Shown here: positions 18,375-57,359 of the stretch, piece by piece
How positions within the stretch are numbered: the first letter of the stretch is position 1
Layout of the letters: every line of letters begins with the position of its first letter
Assembly (NCBI GenBank): GCA_019925095.2
Contig: JAHHIN020000030.1
Coordinates: forward strand, 5,749,001 to 5,813,000
Reading direction: 5' to 3'
DNA length: 64,000 nt
From: Dendrolimus kikuchii
Taxonomy: Eukaryota; Arthropoda; Insecta; Lepidoptera; Lasiocampidae
Translations under genes and position numbers: made by a program
Notes under the pieces: generated by a model
The model's input: the letters and a program-made list of their open reading frames with translations, nothing else
The model's database searches: none
Told to the model about the DNA's origin: nothing

Positions 18375-18709
18375 CCATATGCGTTTAGTAAAAAGCTGTT
18401 ATGATGACATTACAAACAGACACTTAAATTTTATTTATTTATATCGAAGTAAAAAAATAGGAAAACAAAAAAGGAAAACCGACTTCAAAAGCAACTAAAA
18501 TCTAACATTTAAATATATTTCCTAATTTTCTTTAATATCTTGAAGTCGGTTCCAAGTAAGACCTAAACAAACAACAAATTTGCGAAACGCACCGACTTCA
18601 AGATGTTGTAGAAGATATTTGTTATTTAATTAATTTTGTAGTCGTTTCTCTTTTTGGTCTTTTTTTAAAATTAATTGCACAAACTCAATCCCTCTTTTTT
18701 ATTACACGA
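18375..18709. repeat. CCGACTTCAA-type interspersed repeat
   Basis: Around 18477-18605 there are several CCGACTTCAA and TTGAAGTCGG motifs in both orientations. This is a widespread AT-rich lepidopteran repeat, also seen at 55710-55885 and 56480-56525. Non-coding. Confidence 0.55.
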
Positions 18710-23900: not shown

Positions 23901-26900
23901 TTTTAGAGTCCATACACGCTTATTGTTTACTTTTGTTACTGTGTGTGACATTAATTTAGTGATTTATATGTTATGGTGTACCTTAAGATTAACTTATTAT
24001 ATTAATTTATCCTATTTTTAATACTAAACTTATACTAATGTAGAGTGTATCTGTTACATGCTGGTGTTGTGAGGAAGTGCATGTGCAGTGTTGGCCTTAT
24101 ATCTATACTTATATATAGTCCTATCTAGTGCCATATGTGTTGGTTTTTTCTTTTCTGTGCCTGGGTTATTAATTTTTAGGCTCTTTGTGTGTCTTGGTTT
24201 GTTTGTAAAGTGTGCGTGTAATGCAATGCGATGGTAGTGCGCGTTGGTTTGAGTCATTTTGGTTAATTTAGTCGATGTGGCCGATGTAGTCGCTGTGGTC
24301 GATGTGGTCGATGTGGTCGATGTGGCCGATGTGGCCGATGTGGCCGATGTGGTCGGTGTGGCCGATGTGGCCGATGTGGCCGATGTGGTCGGTGTGGCCG
24401 ATGTGGTCGGTGTGGCCGATGTGGTCGATGTGGTCGGTGTGGCCGATGTGGCCGGTGTGGCCGATGTGGCCGATGTGGCCGATGTGGCCGATGTGGCCGA
24501 TGTGGCCGATGTGGTCGGTGTGGCCGATGTGGTCGATGTGGTCGGTGTGGTCTATGTGGTCGGTATGGCCGATGTGGTCGATGTAGTCAATGTGGTCAAT
24601 GTGGTCGATGTGGTCTACGTGGTCGGTGCGATCGATGTGGTCGATTTAGTCATTTTGGTGTACATATGTAGTTTTAATACCGAAAATTGGCATAGATACT
24701 TTTCATCCGGGAGATTAGAAGGTAAATAATTATTCAATCATAAATCACTATTCAGTCTGAATTTCACCCGGTAGTTTCTGAAAAATAAAATGCCAGAGAG
24801 GCACACGGACAGAAGAACACATGGAAAGGACATGACGATTCTAAGTGGTTCATGTTTGGAAAAATGCAAGTAAAACCGTAGAATAAACTTACCTTAATGT
24901 TCTTTTCATAGAATAGTCAGATTAGTTAAATAGATGGCGCTGCAATCGCGTTTCTTCAATTCAATAACAAACATCTATGTTGTCATAAACAACATGTCAT
25001 CATTGTATTACTTCAAATCAAGTTGGCTTCGACTAACTTCTATGTAATTATTATTATTATTATTTATTATTATATGCATGTTACAATTTAGAAAGTCTTA
25101 CCAGTATGCAAGAGTACCTAGAAAGAAGGGTATTCCAAATTTCAGCCTTATACAATCAACTAGTTTTGTTTTATTCACAATTTTGTCCCTTGTGTAAAAC
25201 TGCGCTTTTGTTTGTACGCCCATTTGTTATATAGCCCTCGATATGGACTTAGTTTCTTTCTTATATATGTAAAGCACCTAATTAAGTTTCTATGTATCTA
25301 GTGTATGTATTATGTAACAATCAACGCCAAAGTTTGGGAGGGGGGGACCTTCTTATATGGGGTTTAAACTAAAGAAATGTCCAGTGGTGAGAATGAATAT
25401 TAGTTATTCAACCAGATTAGCGATAAAGTACGAAGACTGTCTAAATCTGCTAACTTCACTCTATAACCACTAAGAATAAGAGTGACCTAGCTGAATCTAG
25501 TTACAATAAAACAAATCAGTGTTGTATCACATTCTTATAATCATGTATCACTGTCTTACTTTAGCTAATAACTTTGTAACCAATAACGCGTCTCTTTCCA
25601 ACAGGCTCTCAACGCCATAAGTGAAAACAGTTCAGGTATATTTTGTAGCAATGGTGTTGGTTTTAGTTTTATTTTGAAGATATTTCTCTGCAACGCTATG
25701 CAACTACTATTAATATTCACGCATAAAACAACAACATAGCATGTTTTTTGCTGAGTTTTACGTGATTATTATAGCAATCTCGGCTAGAGAAGGTCATTCC
25801 GCATTCCCTACACTGAAATAAGGCTTCGGCGCCTTACTCCTGATGGTTCCAAATATTGCGGGCCAAATAACACTTCCATCAGAATAAAGCAAGACGATGT
25901 ATTAATCTTCTTACAGTGATGTATCACTATTTTACATTGATGTATCACTGTTTTAGTGATGTATCATTTTCTTAAAGTAATGTATCACTGTCTTACTGTG
26001 ATTATTAACCGCCTTATAAATAACAAATATACAACTTTATATGGGTCTCTTTCTAACGCGCTCTCAACGATATAAGTGAAAACAGTTTTGATTTAATTTG
26101 TAGCAATTTTGATAGGGTTTTTATAGTTAGTTTTTTTTAATAAGGTTTTATGATTTTTAGTGTTAGGTGCAGTTTTATTTATTATATTAATTGTGAATAC
26201 TTACGCATAAGTCAATTCCGTGGCATGTTTTTTGCTGAGTTTCATATGATTATTATAGCAATCTTGCCTAGAGACTGCGTTTCCGCACTCCCTAGACTCG
26301 TTTAAGGTCTCGAGCCTCACTCCCGATGGTTCCAAATATGGCAAGCCAAATAGCACTTCCATCAGAACAAGGTAAGACAGTGTACTACTTTCTTGCAGTA
26401 ACGTATCACTATTTTACATTGATGTATCACTGTTTTAGTGATGTATCATTTTCTTATAGTGATGTATCATTGTCTTACTGTAATTATTAACCGCATTATA
26501 AGTAACGAATATCCGACTTTATATGCGTCTCTTTCTAATGCGCTTTCAACGATATAAGTGAAAATAGTCTTTTTAATTTAGTTTTTATGATTTGTAGTGT
26601 TAGTTGTAGTTTTATTTATTATATTAATTGTGAATACTTACGCATAAGTCAATTCCGTGGCATGTTTTTTGCTGAGTTTCATATGATTATTATAGCAATC
26701 TCGGCTTGAGAATGTCTTCCCGCACTCTCTACACTCGTGTAGTGCCCCGGCGTCCCTCTCCCGATGGTTCCGCATATGACGCGCCAAGTTGCGCTTCCAC
26801 TGGAACAACTTGCCGCATACTTGACACGGGTAAGTTAGACCGTCGTGTATTACACTGGGAGGAAATATTTGGTAATTAGAGTAGAATAGAATAGAATAAG

Positions 26901-29900
26901 GTATGCTATAATAAAATCGTCTATACTAGATAAATAAAATTTGATTAAAACTTATTTATAAATGACTAGCTGTGCCCGCGACGTCGTCCGTGTGGAATTT
27001 GTTTTCATCCCCCCCCCCCCCCGATTTTGAAACATTGCTCTTAGCATGATGATATATAGCCTTCGATAAATGGGCTATCTAAGACTGAAAGAATTTTTCA
27101 AATCGGACCAGTATTTCCTGAGATTAACGCGTTCAATCAAACAAACAAACAAACTCTTCAACTTTATATATTAGGTACAAGATGTTGTTTTGTTATAACA
27201 AATCGAGTCGTTGACGCATTAGGACATTACTAATTGATTTGTCATCCGAGCTGTCAAAAGTAAAATAAACGCTTGGAAAGAGTAATAACGCAATACTCAC
27301 ACATGCGCCCTGTAACTCTTCTTGGAATGAAACACCTTCTCGCACCCTTTGCAGGGTATCACAACTTTTTCTTTCGTCTTCTCGTCCTTGTTTTGTGGTA
27401 ATATTCTGACAAAAAAAAGACATTATCTGTTGGCGCCACTTATTTCCCAATTACCAGGTCTGTGAAGTTGGCAACTCGAGTTGTGAATTTTTAAACCTAC
27501 ACTATCTCATTCGTTTGTCCATCGTTAGTCCACGTTTGCCCAGAAAAAAATTTCGTTTGCCCACCCTTGGTTCAAAAGTTATAAAAAAAACAAAAATTGT
27601 TTGTGAAGCTGGCACCTCCAATTGAGATTTTTTTACCAAACAATATATCATGTGTTAGCTCATCGTTAGTCGATGTTTGTCCAGGCAAAAGTTTCGTTTG
27701 CCCACCCTCAGATCAAAAGTTATTGAACAAAAACTTTTTCTGAAAAATTAATTTCGGTTCTTCGCATATTTTCACGAGGCTAAGCGTTTATCACACTTGA
27801 ATGGGCTATATCGTTAGCTCATCCAACGAACTCGATTGTCCAGGCTAAAGTTTCGTTTGCCCACCCTCAGATCAAAAGTTATTGAACAAAAACTTTTTTC
27901 TGAAAAATTAATTTCGGTTCTCCCCATATTTTCGCGAGGTTTAGTGTTTATCACACTTGAATGGGCTATATCGTTAGCTCATCTAACGTACTCGATTGTC
28001 CAGGCAAAAGTTTCGTTTGCCCACCCTCAGATCAAAAGTTATTGAACAAAAACGTTTTTTTCTGAAAAAGTAATTTCGGTTCTTCCCATATTTTCGCGAG
28101 GTTTAGTGTTTATCACACTTGAATGGGCTACATTGTTAGCTCATCCAACGAATTCGATTGTCCAGGCAAAAGTTCGTTTGCCCACCCTTAGTTCAAAAGT
28201 TATTAAAAAAAACATGTTTTATTTGAAAAAACTTTTCTATTTTGAGAATTCGCAGTTTTATCATGCTCTTTCGCTTGTACAACGTAAGTGGAAGATTGTC
28301 CAATAGAAATCGTCGTTTGTCCACCCTCCAATCTATGTTTTCTTTTGCATTTTTTGTTTGTTCACGTCATATTTTCGTGACGAGTGGAGATTTTTAAACG
28401 GCGATGGACTCGTTCGTTTGCTTGTTATATGAACTCGATTGTCCAGGCAAAAGTTTCGTTTGCCCACCCTCAGATCAAAAGTTATTGAACAAAAACTTTT
28501 TTTTCTGAAAAAGTCATTTCGGTTCTTCCCATATTTTCGCGAGGTTTAGTGTTTATCACACTTGAATGGGCTATATCGTTAGTTCATTCAACGAACTCGA
28601 TTGTTCAAGCTAAAGTTTCGTTTGCCCACCCTTAGATCAAAAGTTATTGAACAAAAACTTTTTTCTGAAAAAGTAATTTCGGTTCTTCCCATATTTTCGC
28701 GAGGTTTAGTGTTTATCACACTTGAATAGGCTATATCGTTAGCTCATCTAACGAACTCGATTGTCCAGGCAAAAGTTTCGTTTGCCCACCCTCAGATCAA
28801 AAGTTATTGAACAAAAACTTTTTTTCTGAAAAAGTAATTTCGGTTCGGCCCATATTTTCGCGAGGTTTAGTGTTTATCACACTTTAATGGGCTATATCGA
28901 TAGCTCATCCAACGCACTCGATTGTCCAGGCAAAAGTTCGTTTACCCTCCCTTAGTTCAAAAGTTAATAAACAAACCGTCCAAAAGAAAGCCAGTGATGT
29001 ACATCAAAGAACTAAAAAACGGCGTAAGTTATCAAAAAATTTAGAAAAAATAGAATAGAACACATTCACATAGATTACAAGGGACCATGAAAATATTCAA
29101 AATGTCGGCCAATAAAGACAAAATATAATAATAATCATAATAATCGGCAGACAAACACACATATTGTATATAAAATAAATAGTAAATGGTTTTCAGTCGG
29201 TTCTACCACTCGCCGGCCGCTACCATGGCAGGCGCGCTTCGTTCGCTCGGCTCGTGCGGTTTAGTTTGAAGCTGACCTAACCTAACCAAAATCACTGTTG
29301 TACTCACTGGTCTCTACCTTTCACCACCCATCACAATAATATTAGTGACAAAATAGGTGAGGTTATGTTTACCATAAATTAATATACCTACTATTTAAAA
29401 TACGTGTACCAGATATCTGAATAACAACCAAACCGCGTTCTAATATGTGTGATCAAGAGAATAAGGGTGGGAAAACCTATAGAGTTCTAAAAAAAGGATG
29501 GACAGATTTGATGACAAAAGAATTTTTCCTCGAGACAGAAGTGCCTTGCGCCTATATTTTCAAATGCAGTTAAGTCTATGATTCGCCAGAAGCTGAAGTT
29601 TTTTTGAAGATCCATGGATGTTGTAAGGAATGTGCAGCTACTTTCGACGCTCATTCCAGCGAGAAGAAACTCGAGAAACCAGCTTCTGGCGATGGAGTCA
29701 TTACATATTTTTGAAGCATTTGCTTTTTATTGTATTTTCTTATTTATAACCAAAGTACAATTTTGTACGAAGTGAAATTCCAGAAAAATGTCCACAAAAC
29801 GATGACTTTGCTCCAGATTGGTCATGTTATTGACGGTTCAGGGATAAGTGTTAATATCTAAGTAATGTCAGACATCATGTAAATATGAAATCATTATCGA

Positions 29901-32900
29901 AATGTGATATATTGCAAACTGATCTAGTCCAAGTAGGCGGAGACCGGTTTGGATCGATTTGGAAATGAAAAAAAAATAATTAAATAGATGTGTACGTAAT
30001 AATTTTTTTCTCTACAATATCTAGACTTTAAATTCTAATGTAAAAGATACTTTCAACATTGATTGATTCTTTTCCTCGGACTTGTTTCGGAAGCTTTTCT
30101 AAGTCATTTTTTTTTAGCCATGTCCCCGTCACGCTCCTACAATAAGCAGTATAATGTTCCGGCTTATGACAAATAACACCACCTAAAACATACTAAATAT
30201 CTTGTATTCTAATTTTTCCTGGAATTTCTGCTAAAGAAATTATACCATTATATTTTGATTTATTAACTGTTAAAAAAACTTGTGTGTCGATAAATATGAA
30301 CGGACCCTCCTTTAGAATGACTGTTTTTTTGCACGAGCATCTTTTGCATTCTTCTTCCCTATCTATTAGTGTCTGTTGAAGAAATTTGTTCAAATACGTT
30401 GCAAAGCTCAATCCTTCGCCAATCCCTTCCATATCCAAGATATTTGTTTTTTACTTTCTCTGTACAATTTGTACATTTCGTTATTAATTCAAAATTCTTA
30501 ATGTTTGCAAATAATTCAACTATAACAGTATAAGCACTACCATAACAATCTAAAAACCCGTTATCAATTTTAAACACCATTGACAAAAGTCTTGCCCTGA
30601 AATTGTATAACGAAGAATTGATCCCTTCATTGGTATATTTAATTAGAAATGAAAAAATAGGTACATCTGTATTTAAATCTACAAAATCTTTAAAACATGC
30701 GTAGTTACAGTAGGAATAGGCTATAAGTTCCATTATCGAATCAAAAGCGCACGTATTTTGAACAAACACTTTCTTACCATCATGCACAACAGGATTACAT
30801 ACGTTACCATTCTGTAGGACCTCACATTTTCGTTTTCTTAGAGGTCTTTCATAATAAAATTGTATTTCTGGAAATGGTATTAGATATTTACCTCTTTTTG
30901 AAGTATTTCTATTTTCGGAGATAGGTATTCTGCAGTTTGTGTTTTCTTTATTCGTAGTAGTTTTGTAGTCGAGAGTGGATGAAAACCTTGCATCCGGATT
31001 TTGTTTTAAAATAGTAGAAACATCTTCTTCAACAGCTTCAATATTCAAGCCACACCAGTTTTCTTGATTTCGCAAGTAGTTGTAATCTCGTTCCTTTTTA
31101 ACTTTATCGTAATTTACAACGTCAGCCGCAGCTTTATTTGCCTGAGCACCTAGTTTAGTTGAGATCTTCTCAGGAACAAAACGTTTCGACTGCAGACGTT
31201 GTGCAAAATTTAATTTTGAAAGGCTCTCGATAGAATTTATGTGCTTTGCAATGAATTTATCCGACCGTAAAGGTAAATAGCCCGTACCTAAATCATTATT
31301 TTTTAGGGTATTGAAGTACGCTTCGCAGTGGGCCGACGTTGCTACATTTGAAGCCTGAGGAAAATACTTTTGCATAACATTTGTCCACAGGGGAAAATGT
31401 TTTCCGAACCTCATGAAATGTTTTACTACTTCGGGACAATAGAAAGCATTCAGAGATTCAGTTTCCTCCGTTGAATTGATTGCTTCTTGAGCCTTGGCCT
31501 GGATATTTCAAGAAAAAGGGTAACGTCATCATTTTCAATATCTAAATGATCGTAGTCACGTTCATTTATATCTTCAGTTTCATCTTTATTCTTATCAGTA
31601 TAATTGAATTTTTTTATTTTTTCGAATAAGAGATTCTTATTTTTCAAACAAGCGGTATTTTCCCCGATGCTACTTTTCCCTTCATATTCATTTCCAGCCA
31701 CGATAAGTACGGATAGAAAAAGTTTTTTAAAATCTTCGATGTTATCACAAATCGACATGATTCCCAAACATCGGACGTAGAAATCTTTGAGCTTGAAATG
31801 TCTGCCATCAAAAACTTTTGTTCGGCAGAGAATCTTAATTAAATGTGCAATATCGATTCTTATAAAACACATTAAATCCTGTTTTCTATCGTTACTTAAC
31901 CAGCGGTAACAATCGAATATGTATGTTCGTAAACTTTTTTCGTTGAAAGCTAAACAGGTAGCGTTTAGAAGTGCCATGGAGTAATCGCAGACAACTTCTG
32001 GAGGACAGGGAGCACCATCTCGCATAATCTCTCGAAGCCAGTAACAGATAAAATTCGCGTCGTGCTTCTGCGAAATCATGGAGAACAGAGGTTGGACCCC
32101 ATTTTCTGTTGGGATAATGATTTGATACAGTAAAGTGCATCTTTTGGTGCCTTTTTTTGAAGTGTAAGATTTTACAAGACTGCCGGTTGCATCTATTTCT
32201 ATTTTACCAACTTTTTTAATTAAGTCTTTATATAAATGTATTTGCATTCTAGACCAATACATGCAGTACATTTTATCCACTCCTATTTCCTTAATGTATC
32301 CAGAATACCTACCTTCAATCTTCATTTTACATAAGGACTCAATCACCCCGTGATTTGAGTCAATACCTAGTTGAAGATTGATTGCTTCTTCTTTGATTTT
32401 GCGAGCTGCAGCGCCATGTGGCAAATATGGTGGTTCGGGATCACCAAATGAAATGTTATTTATTTGTTCGTTACGCCACAATCTAGGCTTTTTGGATACT
32501 AATTCATGACCTATCATTTCACGAGCAACACCTTGAACAGGACGCTTTGCACTGTGGGGAACGCCCCGGGTGTCGAATGTTTGGATTGATATAATGATTC
32601 CATCGCCAGGAGCTGGTTTCTCGATGGAATGAGCGTCGAAAGTAGCTGCACATTCCTTACAACTTCCATGGATCTTCAAAAAAACTTCAGCTTCTGGCGA
32701 TTCATAGACTTTACCGTATTTGAAAATATAGGCGCAGGGCACTTTTGTCTTTAGGAAAAATTCTTTTGCCACCAAATCTGTCCAACCTTTTTTCAGAACT
32801 CTATGGTATTTCCCACCTTTATTCTCTTGATCACACATATTAGAAACTGGATACATTTTTGTCCAATCCTCTGCCGAAAAAACTAAATTAGTGAACAGAA

Positions 32901-35900
32901 GAGGATATTTAAATTTGAAATCCTTATTCTTGGACACAGTGCTTGGATAATACTCTGAAACGTTAGAGGAATTGACTGTAGTATCGTTAGAATCGTTTGA
33001 AACTTCGGATATTGGAACATCGAAGTATTTTTTAAGGTCATTTAACAAATTCCAACGATTGCATCTCACATACGCGTTAATAGATTCCGGTGTTACTGAT
33101 AATTTAAAACAAGAACACACATATTTCCATACAACATCCGAACGCGGTTTCAAACGTTTATTTTCATCGAAGATATCATGTAATTTTAATGCGTCGAGCA
33201 ATGACTTTGGATCGACACATGCTGTTCGAGGCATATTATAAGACCAAAATTTAATGTATTGCCAAAAAAATTATCTTTCGATATATCTGGAGTATATGGA
33301 GTAAAATGTAATAGACAAATACAATTGCTGAAGTGTCACTTCCAGTAAAAACGTAAATATGGTTAAATACACAGAATTTCCTTTTATCTAAGTATAAAAG
33401 AATATCTGCCTTAAGTATATACAGATAGCGTAAGGCGTAAGATTTATTTTAAATATTTTAAAATAATTTAAATACAAAATTAACACTAACGGGTAAAAAG
33501 AAAAGGATTGTTTGGGCCACTTCGTGATTTTCCTTAATTCAAAGAAAGGTGGACAAACGCGCTCCGGTTTGTTCTCACCCCCGCCCCACACCGCACCTCA
33601 CCGCGGTCGCCTGCACGCGCTGGTTAAACCAAAAAATGCACCCCGCGACACGCATCAGTGGCTATTCTCACCTTTACGCAAAAACTAGTGTCGTGTGCGC
33701 AGCCTTCTTACTCACAATATTTCCATCGCGAGTGGTATACTGCACCTTCAAATAATCATATCAGGCCTGGTAACAGCATCGTGGCGATGGGACAACCGTG
33801 AGTAGCGTTTTGATCTGCTCATTTTTTGAATCGTGGACAATTACGACGTGGCTACACTCTTTCACCGCCATTCCGCATTTTTAATCAGGGCCTTTGGCCT
33901 CTACGCCCCCACATTTGCTGGTCCTTCGAACCCAGGATCCCCCTAGGGGTTACAATCCTTTAATATTTAATATTTATAATATATTTTATTTGTATATTTT
34001 TTACCTTACCGCATACCTTATTTTACCTTACCGCACCTCATTTCTTTTAAACAGCATACATATTATATATATTTCTCTCTTATCTTTATTCGTACCACTC
34101 GACAAACTGCATATTTTTTTAACTGCTTATAATTTAAACCGCTATTTTCGCTAATCTGGTCACTCATAGTTGATATTTCATTTTGTGCAACTGCACAATT
34201 ACCTACCTTCTTTCTAATTTTTATATTAAAGTTATTTATAAAAGTATTCATTAAAAATGAGTAAAACTAGCAAATATACCGCTGAGAAGGAGGTTCCCTC
34301 AAAGATTAAACTCTTAGAAGCTCGTACGCAAGCATTCTTTAACCGCCTACAGAACATTTATGATTCTTCTCGTAATGTTTCCTCAGAAGAATTGTTGAAC
34401 CGTTTCAAGAATTCTGCGGCAAACATCGAACAATTGAGAACGGACTTTTTAAATTGTTGCGATGAACTCAACTTACAAAAAATAGAACATGACCCGCATT
34501 TCACGCCAGACTATGACAGTTTTCTTGCATTCGAAGAATTGTACTCTTCTATAAAAACTACTGTCCCAAACTTTAAAGAAGAAAACGTACAACCCAATAA
34601 AAATGAACGTCCTTCTTTGAAACTACCCGCTATTAACTTGCCCACTTTTGATGGTGATATAAAGAATTGGCCTACATTTTTTGAGTGTTATAATAATGCT
34701 GTTCATTATAGCTCCAATTTGACATCATCGGACAAAGTGTTTTATTTAAAAGGTGTTTTGTCAAATTCCGCGTTGACATGTATTGCCGATATTCCTCCAA
34801 CCGCAGATAACTACAATTTAATTTATACCACATTAGTAGATAAATATCAAGATGTCCGTATGTTAGCGAGTACTTATTTGGTACAAATAGTTAACATGAA
34901 ACCGCTGACATCAGCGTCAGCGGATAACTTAAATTATTTTATTGATAAGTTCTCTGCGTCAGTTTGTGCCTTTAATAGGTTAAAAATTGACAACAAAGTA
35001 GACTTCATATTTTTATTTTTGGCTTTACAAAAAATTGATAAAGAAACCGCTCGACTGTTTTGAAAATTCTGTTCGATCAGAGTCAGTGCCTACATATGAA
35101 AGTCTTATTAAATTCATCAAAGAACAAGTTAAAATTAACGAACGGACAGACGGAAATAATTTTTCTTCAACATCCTCAAATAGAAAAATTAACAATAAAT
35201 TACCTTTTATTCCAAAAATTAATAATAATATAAAACCTACAAAATCTTTTATTACTTCCTCTAATTCTTCAAATATTAAACTCTGCCCGCTATGTTCTAA
35301 GTCTGGACACGAACAATTTTATCGTTGCCCAGAATTTCTGCAATTAAATCCAAAAGAAAGATATAATATTGTAAAAATTAATAACGGTTGTTGTAATTGC
35401 TTAAGCTTTAGTCATAAAACTATATTGTGTAAATCTACAAAATCTTGTGCAAACTGTCAATCTAAATCCCATCATACACTTTTACATTTTTCTAATAATA
35501 CGCCTCCCGCATGTAGTACAACAGTCGAATCCGCAACGAGCGCGCCAACGCCGCGCGCTACCACTAGTGCACAGAACGCTTCACCCTTGACCGTTTTGAA
35601 CAACGTCGTTCGCTTGCATGCTAGCGACTCGCAAACCGGTTCTGCTGTACCACACAAACAATTGTCGCTTCACTCACAATCATTTATTCAACCGATTTGT
35701 CAAAATAATACTGTCTTGCTTGCGACCGCACGCATTATTATTAAGAGTGCCGATGGTTCGGTAAACACCGCCCGTGCACTAATTGATAATGGGTCGATGA
35801 ATGATTTTATAACGCTCAAACTTTGTAAAAAATTATCTTTAAATATAGAATCATTACCTCAAGATATAACTATAAATGGTTTTGGTGGTTCTACCAACAT

Positions 35901-38900
35901 TGTTAAAGGTTATACAAACATTTCAATTTCTTCCCGCTTTAACCGCAACGTTTCATTTGAACTTCACCCGCTTATCGTAGATAATATTACTGACCGCCTA
36001 CCTACATTGCCAATAAATAAATCGATGTTAAATTATCTTACTCGCACTCCGCTCGCCGATGATACATTCTCCGATCCTAGCGAAGTGGAACTTTTGATTG
36101 GTGCCAAATTATTCGCCCGTTTATTGTTACCTGGCCGTATTAGGGGCCCACCGGGATGTCCTGACGCCATTCAAACTTCATTTGGATTTATTTTAATGGG
36201 AGATGCTCCGGTCGCAAACCCTCCTCCCCGCGCCTCTCGCTTACTATCTCATACTTTATGCGCTTTTACCGGTCAGCCGCTTGACACTTTATTGCGAAGT
36301 TTCTGGGAAACTGAGGAGGTTTTGATACCGAGCTCTGAGCTGGTAAGCCAAGAACAGCAAGCTTGTGAAAATATTTATAAGGCTACTACTACACGTGACC
36401 CCTCAGGTTCTTACGTTGTTGCGCTTCCGTTTAAAACTGACCCGTTCGCTTTAGGCAATTCTCTCGCTTATGCTAAAAATAGATTTTTTGCTTTGGAAAA
36501 ACGATTCCAAAAATCTTCTAGTTTTCGCTCCGCTTATAATGATATTTTACTAGATTATTGTGAAAAGGATTTCATCGCTCCGCTACGCTCAGAATACTTA
36601 CCATCGCAGTCAGACGGTTACGTCATACCACATCATGGAGTTATCCGCGAAGATAAGTTAACCACTAAAATTCGCATGGTCTTAGATGCAAGCGCTTCCA
36701 CAGATACAGGCCTATCACTTAATGATATTTTAAACTCGGGGTCTAATTTACAGGCAGATTTATTCTTAACTTTACTGAACTTTCGTTTATTTCCTGTCGC
36801 GCTTTGTGCTGACGTCGAACAAATGTATTTAAGAATAAAAGTGAAGCCAGAGTTTCATAAATATCAACGCATTTTATTTCGTTTTGACGATTCAGACCCT
36901 TTACAAATTTTCGAATTTAAACGTGTTTGTTTCGGGTTAACTTCAAGTCCATATCTGGCATTACGTACATTGAGTCAGCTTGCAGAAGACGAGAAAAATA
37001 ATTTTCCTCTTGCTTTTAATGTAATTAATAATGGTTTTTGTTATATGGATGACGTTTGTTTCTCAGTTGATGACGTCACCGCTGCTAAAACCACCGCCTT
37101 ACAATTAATAGATATGTTTTCGGCGGGTGGTTTTAAACTTCATAAACGGTTAAGTAATTCTACAGAATTACTTTCATCTTTGCCAGACGATCATTTACAT
37201 CCACAAAATATAATTTTCGATAACACTGACACACAAAAGGTGTTAGGCGTTAACTGGGACCCGTCTAATGATTATTTCTATTTTGTAACAGCTCTTCCGG
37301 TTGATGTTTCATGCACAAAACGTAACATGTTGTCCGTAGTAGCCCGTCTATGGGATGTTATGGGTTTCGCCGCGCCTTTAATATTTTATGCAAAATTATT
37401 AATAAAAACACTTTGGCTATTAAAATTAGATTGGGATGACGCACCTCCGCAAACTATAATTTCACAGTGGAATCAATTTCAAAATGAATTACCCCTTTTG
37501 TCAAACCTCACTATACCTCGCCATATTGGTATAACTTCCTCATGTACCGCACATCTTATGGCGTTTTCTGACGCTTCAGAAAAAGGTTATGGAGCCGCAC
37601 TGTACATTCGTTCCGAAACACGCTCTGGAGTGTCTGTAAATTTATTATGTGCCAAATCTAAAGTTGCGCCTGTACAAACTATTAGTCTCGCGCGTCTAGA
37701 ATTGATGGGTGTTCATTTAATGACAAAATTAATACGCACTGTAATAAAAACTTATGAGAATCGTTTTAAATTTAATCAAATTTTTGCGTTTTGTGACTCC
37801 ACTGTAGCCCTTAACTGGGTCCACTCCAGTCCGCACCGCCTGAAAACCTTTGTAGCCAATAGGGTTACAAAGATTCAAGAAATAATTGAACCGCGTAATT
37901 TTTATCACATCTCAGGAAAGGATAATCCTAGTGATTGTTTGTCACGAGGACTTACTCCCGCTCAACTTATTAACCACTCTCTTTGGTTTCACGCTCCCTC
38001 GTGGCTATATCAGGATATATCTGATTGGCCAATCCAAGTTTTTAAAGCATCAGATAAGGATTTACCTGAACTCAAAATAGTATCCTTATGTAACGTGCTA
38101 CCACAACCACAAGTAGACTTACCCTTTAGTTACTTATTTGAAAAATTCTCTCGTTGGTCCAAGTTGCTTAGAGTAGTAGTTTACGTACTGCGCTTTTCTA
38201 AATGTCTAACTTCTCGAGAAGATATAACTGCTGATGATTTGAATACAGCAGAAATAACGATAGTTAAACAAGTTCAAATGGTGCATTTTTCTGATTTAAT
38301 TAAATTATTACAGACAGGGAAGCAAATCCCACGATCCTTTCGGAAACTGAGGCCTTTTTTGGTTGATGGTGTTATTCGAATTGGAGGACGGTTGGAAAAT
38401 AGCGACTTGACTTTTAACCACAAACATCCTTTACTTATGCCTAAAAACAATAAAATAACAGATATTCTAATTGATCACGTTCACCGCACCGCTTGTCACG
38501 CTGGACCTCAACTTGTGATATCATTGTTAAGGCAAAAATTTTGGATAATATCTGCACGTCGTGTTGTAAGAGCGAAAATTTATTCCAGTATTCAATGTTT
38601 TAGGGCACGACCTAAATCGGCACAGCCCCCAGTTATGGCTAATTTACCCTCATGTCATTTACAAATATCTAAGCCATTTGCCCATTCTGGTCATGACTAC
38701 GGAGGACCGCTGTCTATTACCCATACCTTTGCTGGTTCAGATGGCAAAGTAAGGATCGCGCTAGTCAAAACTAAAAACGCCATATTTAAACGTCCAGTGG
38801 TACGTTTATGCCCTCTTCCTATTTATTAACCTCTCTTTATCCACATATATATTTTATTTTTATTTATCCTGCTACTTATATATTTATCATTACTCCTTCT

Positions 38901-41900
38901 TTCTTATACAACCGCTTTTAATTGATTTTTGTTCCTGCATCCTTCTAAATTTTATTTACTTTTCATTGAAAGACCTTCTGGTCTTTCAAAGCGGGGGAAG
39001 ATGTTTGGGCCACTTCGTGATTTTCCTTAATTCAAAGAAAGGTGGACAAACGCGCTCCGGTTTGTTCTCACCCCCGCCCCACACCGCACCTCACCGCGGT
39101 CGCCTGCACGCGCTGGTTAAACCAAAAAATGCACCCCGCGACACGCATACTGATGCGTGTCGCGGCCATAGCCATAGCCACTGGGCTATTCTCACCTTTA
39201 CGCAAAAACTAGTGTCGTGTGCGCAGCCTTCTTACTCACAATATTTCCATCGCGAGTGGTATACTGCACCTTCAAATAATCATATCAGTCCTGGTAAAAG
39301 CATCGTGGCGACGGGACAACCGTGAGTACCGTTTTGATCTGCTCATTTTTTGAATCGTGGACAATTACGACGTGGCTACACTCTTTCACCGCCATTCCGC
39401 ATTTTTAATCAGGGCCTTTGGCCTCTACGCCCCCACAAGGATTTTTATTTTGAATTAGACAAAGTTGAATTTTATATCTTTATCTGTTTTAAGTGCCAAT
39501 CATTAGAACCGAATCTAACTTAAACAAGAAACAAGGCACAGTGCCATCTAGTTTTGTACGTAAATTAAAATATTAAAGCAAATTCAAATAGCTTTTGGTA
39601 GATTACATTTTTAAACGACTTCAAAAAAGGAGGAGGTTTTTATTTCCACGTGTAAATATATGTATTTTAATGTATGTTCAGTCATAAGTGTTATTTCTCA
39701 ACCAATTTTGATGAAATGTAATCTGCTGGTTTTTACCAAAAGCTATTTGAATTTGCTTTAATATTTTAATTTACGTACAAAACTAGATGGCACTGTGCCG
39801 ATTTAAAACATGCTATGGTTTAAGAAATATTATTTAACGACTACTATGTTTCTTGTTTAAGTTAGATTCGGTTCTAATGATTGGCACTTAAAACAGATAA
39901 AGATATAAAATTCAACTTTGTCTAATTCAAAATAAAAATCCTTTTCTTTTTACCCGTTAGTGTTAATTTTGTATTTAAATTATTTTAAAATATTTAAAAT
40001 AAATCTTACGCCTTACGCTATCTGTATATACTTAAGGCAGATATTCTTTTATACTTAGATAAAAGGAAATTCTGTGTATTTAACCATATTTACGTTTTTA
40101 CTGGAAGTGACACTTCAGCAATTGTATTTGTCTATTACATTTTACTCCATATACTCCAGATATATCGAAAGATAATTTTTTTGGCAATACATTAAATTTT
40201 GGTCTTATAATATGCCTCGAACAGCATGTGTCGATCCAAAGTCATTGCTCGACGCATTAAAATTACATGATATCTTCGATGAAAATAAACGTTTGAAACC
40301 GCGTTCGGATGTTGTATGGAAATATGTGTGTTCTTGTTTTAAATTATCAGTAACACCGGAATCTATTAACGCGTATGTGAGATGCAATCGTTGGAATTTG
40401 TTAAATGACCTTAAAAAATACTTCGATGTTCCAATATCCGAAGTTTCAAACGATTCTAACGATACTACAGTCAATTCCTCTAACGTTTCAGAGTATTATC
40501 CAAGCACTGTGTCCAAGAATAAGGATTTCAAATTTAAATATCCTCTTCTGTTCACTAATTTAGTTTTTTCGGCAGAGGATTGGACAAAAATGTATCCAGT
40601 TTCTAATATGTGTGATCAAGAGAATAAAGGTGGGAAATACCATAGAGTTCTGAAAAAAGGTTGGACAGATTTGGTGGCAAAAGAATTTTTCCTAAAGACA
40701 AAAGTGCCCTGCGCCTATATTTTCAAATACGGTAAAGTCTATGAATCGCCAGAAGCTGAAGTTTTTTTGAAGATCCATGGAAGTTGTAAGGAATGTGCAG
40801 CTACTTTCGACGCTCATTCCATCGAGAAACCAGCTCCTGGCGATGGAATCATTATATCAATCCAAACATTCGACACCCGGGGCGTTCCCCACAGTGCAAA
40901 GCGTCCTGTTCAAGGTGTTGCTCGTGAAATGATAGGTCATGAATTAGTATCCAAAAAGCCTAGATTGTGGCGTAACGAACAAATAAATAACATTTCATTT
41001 GGTGATCCCGAACCACCATATTTGCCACATGGCGCTGCAGCTCGCAAAATCAAAGAAGAAGCAATCAATCTTCAACTAGGTATTGACTCAAATCACGGGG
41101 TGATTGAGTCCTTATGTAAAATGAAGATTGAAGGTAGGTATTCTGGATACATTAAGGAAATAGGAGTGGATAAAATGTACTGCATGTATTGGTCTAGAAT
41201 GCAAATACATTTATATAAAGACTTAATTAAAAAAGTTGGTAAAATAGAAATAGATGCAACCGGCAGTCTTGTAAAATCTTACACTTCAAAAAAAGGCACC
41301 AAAAGATGCACTTTACTGTATCAAATCATTATCCCAACAGAAAATGGGGTCCAACCTCTGTTCTCCATGATTTCGCAGAAGCACGACGCGAATTTTATCT
41401 GTTACTGGCTTCGAGAGATTATGCGAGATGGTGCTCCCTGTCCTCCAGAAGTTGTCTGCGATTACTCCATGGCACTTCTAAACGCTACCTGTTTAGCTTT
41501 CAACGAAAAAAGTTTACGAACATACATATTCGATTGTTACCGCTGGTTAAGTAACGATAGAAAACAGGATTTAATGTGTTTTATAAGAATCGATATTGCA
41601 CATTTAATTAAGATTCTCTGCCGAACAAAAGTTTTTGATGGCAGACATTTCAAGCTCAAAGATTTCTACGTCCGATGTTTGGGAATCATGTCGATTTGTG
41701 ATAACATCGAAGATTTTAAAAAACTTTTTCTATCCGTACTTATCGTGGCTGGAAATGAATATGAAGGGAAAAGTAGCATCGGGGAAAATACCGCTTGTTT
41801 GAAAAATAAGAATCTCTTATTCGAAAAAATAAAAAAATTCAATTATACTGATAAGAATAAAGATGAAACTGAAGATATAAATGAACGTGACTACGATCAT

Positions 41901-44900
41901 TTAGATATTGAAAATGATGACGTTACCCTTTTTCTTGAAATATCCAGGCCAAGGCTCAAGAAGCAATCAATTCAACGGAGGAAACTGAATCTCTGAATGC
42001 TTTCTATTGTCCCGAAGTAGTAAAACATTTCATGAGGTTCGGAAAACATTTTCCCCTGTGGACAAATGTTATGCAAAAGTATTTTCCTCAGGCTTCAAAT
42101 GTAGCAACGTCGGCCCACTGCGAAGCGTACTTCAATACCCTAAAAAATAATGATTTAGGTACGGGCTATTTACCTTTACGGTCGGATAAATTCATTGCAA
42201 AGCACATAAATTCTATCGAGAGCCTTTCAAAATTAAATTTTGCACAACGTCTGCAGTCGAAACGTTTTGTTCCTGAGAAGATCTCAACTAAACTAGGTGC
42301 TCAGGCAAATAAAGCTGCGGCTGACGTTGTAAATTACGATAAAGTTAAAAAGGAACGAGATTACAACTACTTGCGAAATCAAGAAAACTGGTGTGGCTTG
42401 AATATTGAAGCTGTTGAAGAAGATGTTTCTACTATTTTAAAACAAAATCCGGATGCAAGGTTTTCATCCACTCTCGACTACAAAACTACTACGAATAAAG
42501 AAAACACAAACTGCAGAATACCTATCTCCGAAAATAGAAATACTTCAAAAAGAGGTAAATATCTAATACCATTTCCAGAAATACAATTTTATTATGAAAG
42601 ACCTCTAAGAAAACGAAAATGTGAGGTCCTACAGAATGGTAACGTATGTAATCCTGTTGTGCATGATGGTAAGAAAGTGTTTGTTCAAAATACGTGCGCT
42701 TTTGATTCGATAATGGAACTTATAGCCTATTCCTACTGTAACTACGCATGTTTTAAAGATTTTGTAGATTTAAATACAGATGTACCTATTTTTTCATTTC
42801 TAATTAAATATACCAATGAAGGGATCAATTCTTCGTTATACAATTTCAGGGCAAGACTTTTGTCAATGGTGTTTAAAATTGATAACGGGTTTTTAGATTG
42901 TTATGGTAGTGCTTATACTGTTATAGTTGAATTATTTGCAAACATTAAGAATTTTGAATTAATAACGAAATGTACAAATTGTACAGAGAAAGTAAAAAAC
43001 AAATATCTTGGATATGGAAGGGATTGGCGAAGGATTGAGCTTTGCAACGTATTTGAACAAATTTCTTCAACAGACACTAATAGATAGGGAAGAAGAATGC
43101 AAAAGATGCTCGTGCAAAAAAACAGTCATTCTAAAGGAGGGTCCGTTCATATTTATCGACACACAAGTTTTTTTAACAGTTAATAAATCAAAATATAATG
43201 GTATAATTTCTTTAGCAGAAATTCCAGGAAAAATTAGAATACAAGATATTTAGTATGTTTTAGGTGGTGTTATTTGTCATAAGCCGGAACATTATACTGC
43301 TTATTGTAGGAGCGTGACGGGGACATGGCTAGAAAAAAATGACTTAGAAAAGCTCCCGAAACAAGTCCGAGGAAAAGAATCAATCAATGTTGAAAGTATC
43401 TTTTACATTAGAATTTAAAGTCTAGATATTGTAGAGAAAAAAATTATTACGTACACATCTATTTAATTATTTTTTTTTCATTTCCAAATCGATCCAAACC
43501 GGTCTCCGCCTACTTGGACTAGATCAGTTTGCAATATATCACATTTCGATAATGATTTCATATTTACATGATGTCTGACATTACTTAGATATTAACACTT
43601 ATCCCTGAACCGTCAATAACATGACCAATCTGGAGCAAAGTCATCGTTTTGTGGACATTTTTCTGGAATTTCACTTCGTACAAAATTGTACTTTGGTTAT
43701 AAATAAGAAAATACAATAAAAAGCAAAAGCTTCAAAAATATGTAATGACTCCATCGCCAGAAGCTGGTTTCTCGAGTTTCTTCTCGCTGGAATGAGCGTC
43801 GAAAGTAGCTGCACATTCTTTACAACATCCATGGATCTTCAAAAAAACTTCAGCTTCTGGCGAATCATAGACTTAACTGCATTTGAAAATATAGGCGCAA
43901 GGCACTTCTGTCTCGAGGAAAAATTCTTTTGTCATCAAATCTGTCCATCCTTTTTTTAGAACTCTATAGGTTTTCCCACCCTTATTCTCTTGATCACACA
44001 TATTAGAACGCGGTTTGGTTGTTATTCAGATATCTGGTACACGTATTTTAAATAGTAGGTATATTAATTTATGGTAAACATAACCTCACCTATTTTGTCA
44101 CTAATATTATTGTGATGGGTGGTGAAAGGTAGAGACCAGTGAGTACAACAGTGATTTTGGTTAGGTTAGGTCAGCTTCAAACTAAACCGCACGAGCCGAG
44201 CGAACGAAGCGCGCCTGCCATGGTAGCGGCCGGCGAGTGGTAGAACCGACTGAAAACCATTTACTATTTATTTTATATACAATATGTGTGTTTGTCTGCC
44301 GATTATTATGATTATTATTATATTTTGTCTTTATTGGCCGACATTTTGAATATTTTCATGGTCCCTTGTAATCTATGTGAATGTGTTCTATTCTATTTTT
44401 TCTAAATTTTTTGATAACTTACGCCGTTTTTTAGTTCTTTGATGTACATCACTGGCTTTCTTTTGGACGGTTTGTTTATTAACTTTTGAACTAAGGGAGG
44501 GTAAACGAACTTTTGCCTGGACAATCGAGTGCGTTGGATGAGCTATCGATATAGCCTATTAAAGTGTGATAAACACTAAACCTCGCGAAAATATGGGCCG
44601 AACCGAAATTACTTTTTCAGAAAAAAAGTTTTTGTTCAATAACTTTTGATCTGAGGGTGGGCAAACGAAACTTTTGCCTGGACAATCGAGTTCGTTAGAT
44701 GAGCTAACGATATAGCCTATTCAAGTGTGATAAACACTAAACCTCGCGAAAATATGGGAAGAACCGAAATTACTTTTTCAGAAAAAAGTTTTTGTTCAAT
44801 AACTTTTGATCTAAGGGTGGGCAAACGAAACTTTAGCTTGAACAATCGAGTTCGTTGAATGAACTAACGATATAGCCCATTCAAGTGTGATAAACACTAA

Positions 44901-47900
44901 ACCTCGCGAAAATATGGGAAGAACCGAAATGACTTTTTCAGAAAAAAAAGTTTTTGTTCAATAACTTTTGATCTGAGGGTGGGCAAACGAAACTTTTGCC
45001 TGGACAATCGAGTTCATATAACAAGCAAACGAACGAGTCCATCGCCGTTTAAAAATCTCCACTCGTCACGAAAATATGACGTGAACAAACAAAAAATGCA
45101 AAAGAAAACATAGATTGGAGGGTGGACAAACGACGATTTCTATTGGACAATCTTCCACTTACGTTGTACAAGCGAAAGAGCATGATAAAACTGCGAATTC
45201 TCAAAATAGAAAAGTTTTTTCAAATAAAACATGTTTTTTTTAATAACTTTTGAACTAAGGGTGGGCAAACGAACTTTTGCCTGGACAATCGAATTCGTTG
45301 GATGAGCTAACAATGTAGCCCATTCAAGTGTGATAAACACTAAACCTCGCGAAAATATGGGAAGAACCGAAATTACTTTTTCAGAAAAAAACGTTTTTGT
45401 TCAATAACTTTTGATCTGAGGGTGGGCAAACGAAACTTTTGCCTGGACAATCGAGTACGTTAGATGAGCTAACGATATAGCCCATTCAAGTGTGATAAAC
45501 ACTAAACCTCGCGAAAATATGGGGAGAACCGAAATTAATTTTTCAGAAAAAAGTTTTTGTTCAATAACTTTTGATCTGAGGGTGGGCAAACGAAACTTTA
45601 GCCTGGACAATCGAGTTCGTTGGATGAGCTAACGATATAGCCCATTCAAGTGTGATAAACGCTTAGCCTCGTGAAAATATGCGAAGAATCGAAATTAATT
45701 TTTCAGAAAAAAGTTTTGGTTCAATAACTTTTGATCTGAGGGTGGGCAAACGAAACTTTTGCCTGGACAAACATTGACTAACGATGAGCTAACACGTGAT
45801 ATATTGTTTGGTTAAAAAATCTCAATTGGAGGTGCCAGCTTCACAAACAATTTTTGTTTTTTTTTATAACTTTTGAACCAAAGGTGGGCAAACGTGGACT
45901 AACGATGGACAAACGAATGAGATAGTGTAGGTTTAAGAATTCGCAACTCGAGTTGCCAACTTCACAGAGCTCCAATTACCAATTGTGTCTTGGGTTTATA
46001 GCGTTTTGCAACCCCCGGATATTGCCGCCGCTCGTTCGGCGCGTGAGTTCAGTACGTTGCCAAACGCCACGCTACCGCGACGCACATAAGGTAGTATCGC
46101 ACCCGCATAAATACACATATTAGCTATCGAAGATTTCCGCGTCCAGTAGTTAGTTACTAGGACATTCGCCTCAACCATAAATAAACTCCAGCATGTAACA
46201 GATACACTCTACATTAGTATAAGTTTAGTATTAAAAATAGGATAAATTAGTATAATAAGTTAATCTTAAGGTACACCATAACATATAAATCACTGAATTA
46301 ATGTCACATGGTAACAAAAATAAACAATAAACGTGTATGGACTCCAAAATTTTTCATAGAAATTAAGTATTAAAAAAAGGTACGGAACTCGAGTCCGTAG
46401 ATATGTTAATAATAATAATAAAAAAAAACATAAATAAACTTAAGGGATCAGTGTGTTTGCGTCCCTTGCGCCCCGGGGCTCGTATAGAAGGACTTCGCCA
46501 CCGAGAAAGCAACGGCAGAACCCTGAACCAGCGCTGTCGTGGGCTGGTGGCTGACTGCGAGGTAAGTGCAAGGTTCTATATTCTTCGGGCACCAGTTCTT
46601 AATCGGGGAATAAGGGATGGCCATACATTGAGCACATAACCCCCTACCCGCGGAGATTGCCTGATTGCGTCTCCACTATCGTTGTCCATTGCGATGACTA
46701 GACGTATGCAGCTCCCATAAAGTGTGAATCTGGGGTCAGTTTGGCCCATACATGCTCAAAATTTTCAGGTAGTATGGATGAAACTGGACCCAGATTCGGA
46801 GTCAGCGTATCGAAACACAAGAATAGACGAGTCTGCTCAAAAGTACAGAAATTTTTATCCGTGCAAGAAGGGAGAAAGAATACAATTTCCTGCGTTGGGT
46901 GGTAGGTAGCCAGGTGGTAGGGCATTAAGCCGACTGGATGGCTACCACCCCTGGTCTAGAGTATGCCGCCATCAGTGGCCAGGTTCCAATCTCCCTTAAG
47001 AGAGTAGCAGCGCATTTGTGGCACCTTTGGTGTTGCAAATGACCATAGGCGATGCTAACCACTTTCCAACAAGTGGACCGTCTGCTTGTCTGCTGAACAC
47101 CTGCATTTTTTTTTTTTTTAAAGTCCACTTTTTTTGTGTGTCATGGAGTGTCTAGCAATTGCTAGATTACTCAAAACACTTACTTGAGATGATACTTAAG
47201 TGTCATTTTATTCGCGAACACCTTCCCACAGCAGTCGCACTGCGGCCGCTCTTGGTCGCACACTATCCTATGGTACGACAGTTTTGATTTCGTGCTGAAA
47301 ATAAATTTATATGCTAATAATAATGTGCAAAAAGTTCTTGAAGGGTTACATTTAACTCTCGCGCGTTGCACAGTTGCATACTGAATTTACTCAAGACAAG
47401 TTTGTATTACAAAAATCTCAAAATTAATATTGTTACGTATTTGTGGGATTCGAATTTAAACGAAGTTGGAATTATCACAAACTTTATTAGAAGTACGCAC
47501 ACAACCGAATACAACAAGTTCAAACCGTAAGACAGAATATTCTATTCTGTCTTATAAAGTGTTCTCTATTCTAGAGAACACTTTATTGTTCACCAAATAA
47601 ACAATTACAGAATAAATAATTACAATAATTTAACGACAAAAGAAAAGGCGGCCTTATCGCTTAAAGCGATCTCTTCCAGCCAACCTGAGTGAGAGGATAC
47701 TTTTAACAACTTGTCTAGGTATAATTAAATTAATAAGAAAAAAAATAAAAAAGTAAGACCAGTATAATGAAGAATAATAATAACATAACGCGCAAAGTCT
47801 GTCGATGAAAGATTCCCGTTCGAAGTATATACTCAATAACACCACGATCGCAGTTGAAACTCAACTAACTCTGTCGCTACGGGCCGACCTTATATATTCG

Positions 47901-55506: not shown

Positions 55507-57359
55507 CTGTAAAGAGAGAGAGAGATATAACACTTTGATGCACATCAAAATATACAATTACAAAAACAGACCATATTTACAATATTTTCTAGGCAATACA
55601 ACTGGCGGCCTTAAAGCTCAAAGCTATCCCTTCCAGGCAACATAAATCAAAGCAATTTGATTCAGGCAATGTAGGTGGTGCAGGAAAAAATAAAAAAAAT
55701 CGTTTAAAAAAACCCGACTTCAAAAACTAAAAAGTAGTGCTTAGTAATTTTCAAAATATAGTAATTTTTATGTTTTACTTTGCACCGACTTCAAGATGTT
55801 TTAGATAATATATATTAATAATAATAGATTTAGAAATAAGTTATTTTATACTTTTTAGTTTTTGAAGTCGGTTTTTTAAAAGGTTTTTTTTTTTTGTTAC
55901 TTTTTAGTGTCTAGCTATGTATGGGTAGACCGCGATGAGGTACGAAAGGTGCCGCGCTCCTTAAAAAATATAGGTCCCAAGAAACTGGAACAAAAAAATG
56001 TTCGTAAAATGAAAACTACTGGGCCAAACTATGTCAAATTTTTAGGAGACCAAATGGCAGCTAATCCGCGTCGAACAAAAAAAAAGAATCACGTAAATCG
56101 GATCATAAATCTCAGAGTAATCGGTGCATATATGGAACGGACTGGAAATTTTTTCATAAAAAATGTTCATAAGATGAAAACTACTAGGCCAAACTATGTC
56201 AAATTTTTAGGAGACCAAATGGCAGCTATTCCGCGTCGAACAAAAAAAGAATCACGTAAATCGGATAATAAATCTCAGATTAATCGGTGTACATATGGAA
56301 CGGAATGGAAATGTTTTCATAAAAAATGTTCATAAAATGAAAACTACTAGGCCAGACTATGTTAAATTTTTAGGGGATCAAATGGCAGCTATTTCGCGTC
56401 GAACAAAAAATATCACGTAAATCGGATCATAAATCTCGGAGTAATCGGTGAACATACATAAAAAAAAACAAAAAACAAAGATTCCGACGAATTGAGAACC
56501 TCCTCCTTTTTTAAAGTCGGTTAAAAAGGCAATAGATACATAAATACTCAAACTAATTTAAGAATTAAATAGTAAGTAAAACTTAAGTAAAACTACTCAT
56601 TGACAATAATAGAATCGCTTAGCCTTCGAAGAGAGTGCTTCCCTCTGCGTATTCTACCGCCTGTATAAAGGGGAGTGTTCCGAGGAACGTGTGATCGTGT
56701 ACTAGCAGAAGGTGATGTCAGGAGCCTTAAGAACAGACGAGCGTGCACGACAAGAGTTATGAATGTCAAAAAAGTAAGTGAGGTGCCTAAATGGCGCTCT
56801 GTTGTTCGTGCCTACCCCGCAAGGGAACTGGCGTGAAGTTATGTATGTATGTATGTATGTTCCGAGGAAGTGTTTGATCTGGTGACAACGCCTGACTCTT
56901 ACAACGCTCGTCAGCGACGAGATATTCACCCCCATTTCCTTGAGTTCCCGTGCTCAACTACGTAACGGTTCTCCAGAACATTTATTCCATGTACAACAAT
57001 GATCTGGAGGTAACTTCCCGCGTGGTTTTCCCTTTGCGCTATGACATGGGGTTCTTTAAGAAGGGCGTTATAAAATTTCTTACAGGACAGGAACGCGTTG
57101 GCGACGGTAACCACTTTCCATCAGGTGGGTAGTCTGCTAGTTGGCCTGCTTCAGGCAATAAAAAAAAACTTGACATCTTTGTCTTTTGCGATTACAGCTA
57201 CTGAAAAGTTGCTGAAATGTCAGAATAATAAAAATCAAATAAAGTACCGCACTTAAAATAGTCAAAATATAAGTTTATTACTTAAGTTGATTCCTTATAT
57301 CTAAGTAAGTGTGTTATATATAAATATTACATGTAATATTTTCTTAAGTTTTCGCGACT
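55507..57359. repeat. Repeat-rich intron or intergenic DNA
   Basis: 55710-55885: CGACTTCAA repeat pair in both orientations. 55995-56470: tandem repeat, ~164-bp unit, about 2.8 copies (AAAATGAAAACTACTGGGCC, GGAGACCAAATGGCAGC, CGTAAATCGGATCATAAATC). 56480-56525: AGAACCTCCTCC motif. 56610-57165 (+): LINE ORF2 tail remnant (YRLYKGECSEE; HPHFLE-like; MGFFKKGVIKFL) interrupted by ~175 bp and ending in CATCAGGTGGGTAGTCTG. Confidence 0.65.

Follow-up and report, generated by a model that had tools for sequence, protein, structure and literature searches.

A palindromic foldback element

The subject of this study is a stretch of 64,000 nucleotides from the genome of Dendrolimus kikuchii (Lepidoptera, Lasiocampidae; GenBank assembly GCA_019925095.2, contig JAHHIN020000030.1, positions 5,749,001 to 5,813,000 of the forward strand), hereafter called the window, and a palindromic transposable element that lies in it. 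Positions 27456-45971 form one giant inverted repeat with arms of ~6.2 kb and a loop of 103 bp (Table 1). The repeat is flanked by an exact 9-bp target duplication (CCAATTACC, at 27447-27455 and 45972-45980). When the window was aligned to itself, a single inverted match resulted (6,057 bp, 99.4%), along with short pieces at the centre. The open reading frames (ORFs) of the two arms are mirrored, and their coordinates always sum to 73446 (33234+40212, 31450+41996, 31414+42032, and 30359+43087). A preliminary description of this DNA had proposed ~6-kb arms, the 103-bp loop, 9-bp repeats at the edges, and these ORF sums, all of which were confirmed by the self-alignment and the coordinates. The ~160-bp subrepeats claimed in it are also present, in two blocks per arm. 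The arms match as it proposed, except that the inner part of the left arm starts at 39443, since 39438-39442 is the target duplication of a BEL/Pao retrotransposon.

This long terminal repeat (LTR) retrotransposon (33509-39437) has DUF1759, Peptidase_A17, and reverse transcriptase domains and is flanked by a 5-bp duplication. It is a guest and is outside the palindrome's own make-up. Between its LTRs, 4 of ~401 positions are substituted, all of them inside 41 bp (P = 0.004). At face value, this LTR clock implies far more divergence between the arms than is seen; it was discarded since the 4 substitutions are clustered. In the ORF of the guest (35035-38829), the zinc-binding part of the integrase is directly followed by the end of DUF5641. 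Thus, the integrase core seems to be missing.

At the centre, the inner end of each arm has an 11-bp inverted repeat bordering the loop. The loop (39611-39713) resembles a dispersed repeat that has further copies in the window, and it may be akin to a repeat of moths and butterflies. A search of the right arm for an inner copy of the tip near the centre gave none (blastn E 0.01), and a scan of the palindrome centre for bacterial-type promoters gave fewer sites than shuffled sequence. The palindrome was read from assembled sequence, and a folded read or a contig join might produce one. Such an artefact is extremely improbable: the retrotransposon is in one arm only, 16 substitutions distinguish the arms, the 9-bp duplications match, the 2-kb flanks to the left and right show no similarity to each other, and a second locus has the same centre (see below).

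The transposase gene and its affiliation

The preliminary description had placed a whole transposase gene in each arm. A gene does lie inside each arm, but the window copy is not whole; both arms have the same breaks, namely two frame shifts and a single in-frame stop codon. A profile search matched P0102, a 120.7 kDa protein in NOF-FB of Eumeta japonica (28% over 365 amino acids to the window gene), and the comparison of P0102 with an alignment of the relatives gave an hhalign probability of 100. The predicted fold of one relative is closest to ISCth4, and it is that of a DDE transposase with an RNase H-like fold akin to IS256/Mutator. The Pfam Mutator transposase models did not match the window gene pieces or the relatives scanned; for the transposase and the window, nothing useful came from Pfam, PDB sequences, or Rfam. 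In viral contigs, 48 stretches fitted a peptide pattern and none of them held a relative, while eleven 17-base tip matches were taken as chance. Mutator-like elements (MULEs) make 9-bp duplications. Judging from the shared tips, the 9-bp duplications, and the predicted DDE fold of a relative, the element family is a Foldback/NOF-type Mutator-like transposon family. The NOF/MULE identity, the foldback architecture, the 9-bp duplications, and the placing of a gene within either arm, all suggested earlier, are borne out.

Distribution of the family in the genome

The 705-Mb assembly (49 contigs) was searched with two queries. A tip-and-subrepeat query gave at least 274 matches (36 of 65 candidates scored). 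Seventeen elements were fetched and then 5 further loci, making 22 loci. Apart from C3b, whose left tip was not located, the 9-bp duplication could be assessed in 16 of the 17 elements; it is exact in 11 of them, has at most one mismatch in 13, and is absent in 3. When the second palindrome described below is set aside, 21 fetched loci remain; 10 of them have the gene-tail region, single and unmirrored, and 1 more has a weak partial match. These gene-less relatives do not share the palindromic form of the window element.

A gene query of 2,876 bp gave 26 matches with all 23 candidates scored; the centre was not itself a query, and strongly diverged copies could escape. Four matches are full-length, two in each of two palindromes, and the remainder are partial copies or fragments. 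The next-best match (G000:C22:15468841-15470824, 88% identical, query 680-2604) is a lone partial copy, a diverged relative. The four full-length matches make two mirror pairs. Thus, within the reach of this search, the whole gene exists only in mirror pairs, and the earlier concern that other copies might show a single arm was not borne out by the full-gene matches. The layout of FB-NOF, with a single transposase gene between the repeats, was not encountered; both full-gene loci carry the gene in each arm.

An antisense fragment, related to the N-terminal region of the transposase and ~85-93% identical to the gene, lies in the tail region of both window arms (Table 1). The same fragment is present in 10 of the 21 other fetched loci. 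It is perhaps the relic of an earlier inverted duplication.

A second palindrome

The second palindrome, 1 of the 22 fetched loci, is on contig C2 (G000:C2:10657826-10679537, about 21.7 kb) and has two divergent gene copies. Both of its arms encode the same uninterrupted ORF of 1,069 amino acids. A 201-bp sequence spanning the window centre aligns to this palindrome as one piece at 98.5%, and the C2 copy has its own exact 9-bp target duplication, GAATTTACA, on both sides. When 1 kb on each side of the window copy was compared with 317 and ~350 bp beside the C2 copy, only a short repeat was found in common, beginning ~385 bp from the edge of the window element. Because the same centre occurs at a second locus with its own 9-bp duplication and different adjacent flanks, the palindrome most likely moved as a unit at least once, as had been proposed in advance. 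A ~700-bp stretch of the tail (window 43436-44147) is absent from both C2 arms, a difference that is mirrored within the element.

One may suppose instead that an ordinary element was inserted in the window and became a palindrome there afterwards, and that the structure never moved. The window tips do look older than the arms, and the gene-tail region is unmirrored in the 10 loci mentioned above. However, the identical centre junction is found beside another target duplication and different flanks, which contradicts this supposition unless the two copies are related by segmental duplication; the compared flanks share nothing but the short distant repeat. I consider such a one-off event in place very improbable.

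Concerted evolution of the arms

Of the sites that vary in 3,224 aligned bp of the four arms, 24 distinguish one element from the other in both arms, 2 are private to the left arm of the window, and none groups arms across elements. Without exchange since the origin of the palindrome, arms should differ within an element at least as much as between elements. The opposite was observed; thus, as far as these alignments tell, the arms within each element evolve in concert. The likeness is likely maintained by gene conversion, which would act in place. Both window arms share the three interruptions of the gene in mirrored form, and C2 has none of them. Thus, these interruptions most likely arose after the split of the two elements and then spread from one arm to the other. 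A 3,334-bp part of the right window arm, including both open gene pieces, is identical in the left arm, and nine bins on the gene side of C2 have no difference between arms in 4,244 bases.

The 16 substitutions between the window arms are accompanied by indels of 21, 1, 1, 46, and 10 bp. Nine of the substitutions are crowded into the outermost 302 bp (P about 1e-8), 5 are at arm positions 1434-2659, and 2 are beside small central indels. At the tips, 9 of 281 sites differ between the two ends, against 0 of 488 in the adjacent inner zone. These are 4 changes in one end and 5 in the other, all absent from the 32 other tips aligned. The order is reversed in all 16 other elements, and also in the C2 palindrome (tips 1/302, inner zone 9/487). 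The window pattern fits in-place copying that began at the centre and ran outward, stopping about 303 bp short of the tips. The direction of copying is not readable from the tips, since most of their differences are private to the palindrome. For the same reason, and because most other elements have similar ends, the idea of distinct end types for the two ends was dropped. An AGG/AGC asymmetry of the ends was likewise rejected; it was the product of a BLAST tie and was gone on re-examination.

The main rival to in-place conversion is re-copying during movement. Here, transposition or repair would rebuild the second arm at each move by fold-back synthesis from the centre, so that copies are born as perfect palindromes. 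The short loop edged by the 11-bp inverted repeat suits such synthesis, and arms alike within elements and different between them are equally predicted. The window tips, on the other hand, have private changes beside an identical inner zone; this suggests that the element had already been in place for some time when its arms were last homogenised. Re-copying is therefore unlikely, but it deserves consideration.

Between the elements, the coding differences are 13 synonymous and 11 non-synonymous, while ~80% would be non-synonymous by chance (P = 0.0003). The first gene piece alone has 8 synonymous and 4 non-synonymous differences (P = 0.0007). Judging from these substitutions, selection has probably acted on the gene through much of the period since the two elements split. 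This bears on whether the main effect of the palindrome is to silence its own family. Read-through from outside might give a long hairpin RNA and then small RNAs, as in maize, where MuDR is silenced by Mu killer, a locus with two copies of TIRA in which part of mudrA is duplicated and inverted (PMC3440606); hairpin loci of flies yield small interfering RNAs (PMC10317233). By this analogy, a hairpin-RNA role is possible. As the main effect it is improbable, more so than re-copying, since the genes face outward, so that their own promoters would not read over the centre, and a pure silencer would not need protein-level constraint on the gene.

Taken together, I assign a probability of about 0.78 to the following explanation: the element is a Foldback/NOF-type Mutator-like DNA transposon, palindromic with a transposase gene in each arm and present at two loci, which likely moves as a unit and whose arms are likely kept alike by gene conversion. 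Several points weigh against it. Both palindromes are known solely as assembled sequence. Only two were found, and a single move would account for both, with no need of repeated mobility. Over the subrepeat arrays, the C2 arms differ by 3.2-6.2% as aligned in 8 of 8 bins of 500 bp; thus, conversion, if acting, spares these arrays. Large one-sided insertions and gaps persist inside the arms of both elements: the BEL guest in the window, and, on C2, one arm with a gap of ~275 bp next to the centre and the other with ~3 kb inserted upstream of the gene, which makes the expression of the C2 genes uncertain. The LTR divergence of the guest (4 of ~401) exceeds that of the surrounding arms and is left unexplained. 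The selection test used 24 differences, uncorrected for transition/transversion; the second gene piece alone (4 to 4, P = 0.06) is not significant, and the tail has 1 to 3. Finally, homogenisation could take place during transposition rather than in place.

Possible origin and role

The palindrome would have had one origin: an element with a single gene broke, and its repair used its own other end as the template. Copying would turn round near the 11-bp inverted repeat at the centre, beside the loop. Afterwards, arm-to-arm conversion would keep the paired genes alike, and it would also spread the lesions of the window copy to both arms. The window copy would now move only on borrowed transposase, while the C2 palindrome may supply transposase to many gene-less foldback copies. 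It is tempting to go further and regard the palindrome as a master transposon, since the sole full-length genes found in this large foldback family are mirror pairs. Conversion would then be a built-in copy-editor that restores or destroys both genes, and the element a mobile counterpart of Y-chromosome palindromes. This idea is tentative, and I put it somewhat short of an even chance. A gene within the repeat, two loci, and arms that evolve in concert make it testable whether a transposon can keep its transposase alive by intramolecular gene conversion and is killed by that process when the wrong arm is copied.

Comparison with known systems

Foldback elements are known with inverted repeats around a gene or without a gene; here, the gene lies within the repeat. 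In FB-NOF of Drosophila, which has a related transposase and long terminal repeats bearing subrepeats, NOF is a single gene between the repeats and not within them. In composite transposons of the Tn5/Tn10 type, the inverted arms are complete insertion sequences, each with its own inner end and with a transposase gene inside it. The likeness is in the paired genes, while the present element differs in the absence of a detectable inner tip copy.

Tm1 (PMC3169594), Muta1 (PMC5225508), and Tetris (PMC4079207) have foldback ends with internal repeats and 8-10-bp duplications and are placed in the Mutator superfamily, which its authors only suggest for Tetris. Tm1 and Muta1 differ from the present element in having a single transposase gene between the ends, and Tetris in having none. 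In Galileo, the extension of the repeats has been attributed to repair that takes one end as the template for the other, with TIR1-F1-F1-TIR2 (TIR, terminal inverted repeat) as the product, and one such central region is shared subfamily-wide (PMC3573991). Its extended (2RT) copies are alike in that internal sequence was drawn into the inverted repeats. Galileo differs, however, in belonging to the P superfamily, in having repeats of at most ~1.26 kb, and in lacking a transposase ORF in the copies with the longest repeats described there (PMC3573991). If such end-from-end repair were extended across a whole gene, it would give the present structure.

The nearest known structure is Mu killer. 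It, too, is of the Mutator type, carries transposase sequence duplicated in inverted orientation, and has one and the same terminal end at either side. Its inverted partial mudrA copies of 1,298 bp each lie between two copies of one end, and its centre resisted sequencing (PMC3440606). It has ~1.3 kb of mudrA per side at one locus; the present element has the whole gene per arm and occupies two loci, and on C2 the ORF is uninterrupted in both arms. The present element may be seen as an animal-type counterpart to Mu killer, where inverted transposase copies silence a Mutator family. Neither of the nearest precedents, Mu killer and the extended copies of Galileo, has a whole gene per arm, and searches of an open-access library, which lacks most subscription papers, turned up no palindromic transposon of that kind. 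The form had been called one not known as described; to this, Mu killer should be added as a partial precedent.

Table 1. Parts of the palindromic element and its guest (window coordinates)
Feature	Position	Strand
9-bp target duplication, left copy, CCAATTACC	27447..27455	
Left arm up to BEL insertion (tip, subrepeats, gene tail, transposase gene on - strand)	27456..33508	+
Subrepeat block 1, left arm, ~160 bp x 3.5	27677..28230	+
Subrepeat block 2, left arm, ~160 bp x 3.4	28431..28975	+
N-terminal fragment of related transposase, left arm, opposite in sense to that arm's gene	29438..29665	+
Left-arm gene, second open piece (third catalytic acidic residue; Cys box of predicted USP-like domain)	30359..31414	-
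Left-arm gene, first open piece (two catalytic Asp, D-x-x-H)	31450..33234	-
BEL/Pao 5-bp target duplication (second copy 39438-39442)	33504..33508	
BEL/Pao LTR retrotransposon, left arm only (LTRs 33509-33913 and 39002-39437)	33509..39437	+
Left arm, inner end, closing with 11-bp inverted repeat 39600-39610	39443..39610	+
Loop, 103 bp, dispersed-repeat fragment	39611..39713	
Right arm (11-bp inverted repeat 39714-39724 at inner end)	39714..45971	-
Right-arm gene, first open piece, 594 amino acids	40212..41996	+
Right-arm gene, second open piece, 351 amino acids; tail continues to ~43424 beyond another frame shift and stop	42032..43087	+
Antisense transposase fragment, right arm	43781..44008	-
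Subrepeat block 2, right arm	44471..45015	-
Subrepeat block 1, right arm	45216..45770	-
9-bp target duplication, right copy, CCAATTACC	45972..45980	

Other features of the window

Three tandem arrays lie outside the palindrome: a 130-bp repeat at 15581-18375 (21.5 copies, 95% matches), a 9-bp repeat at 24271-24645 (41.7 copies), and a 163-bp repeat at 55993-56456 (2.8 copies). There are also five retrotransposon ORFs (7561-10608, 11674-13530, 54147-55250, 58779-60164, and 60133-63588). Four of them have a reverse transcriptase domain, two of these with an endonuclease domain in addition, and the fifth has DUF4780. Some of these ORFs sit in GC-rich stretches within an AT-rich region.

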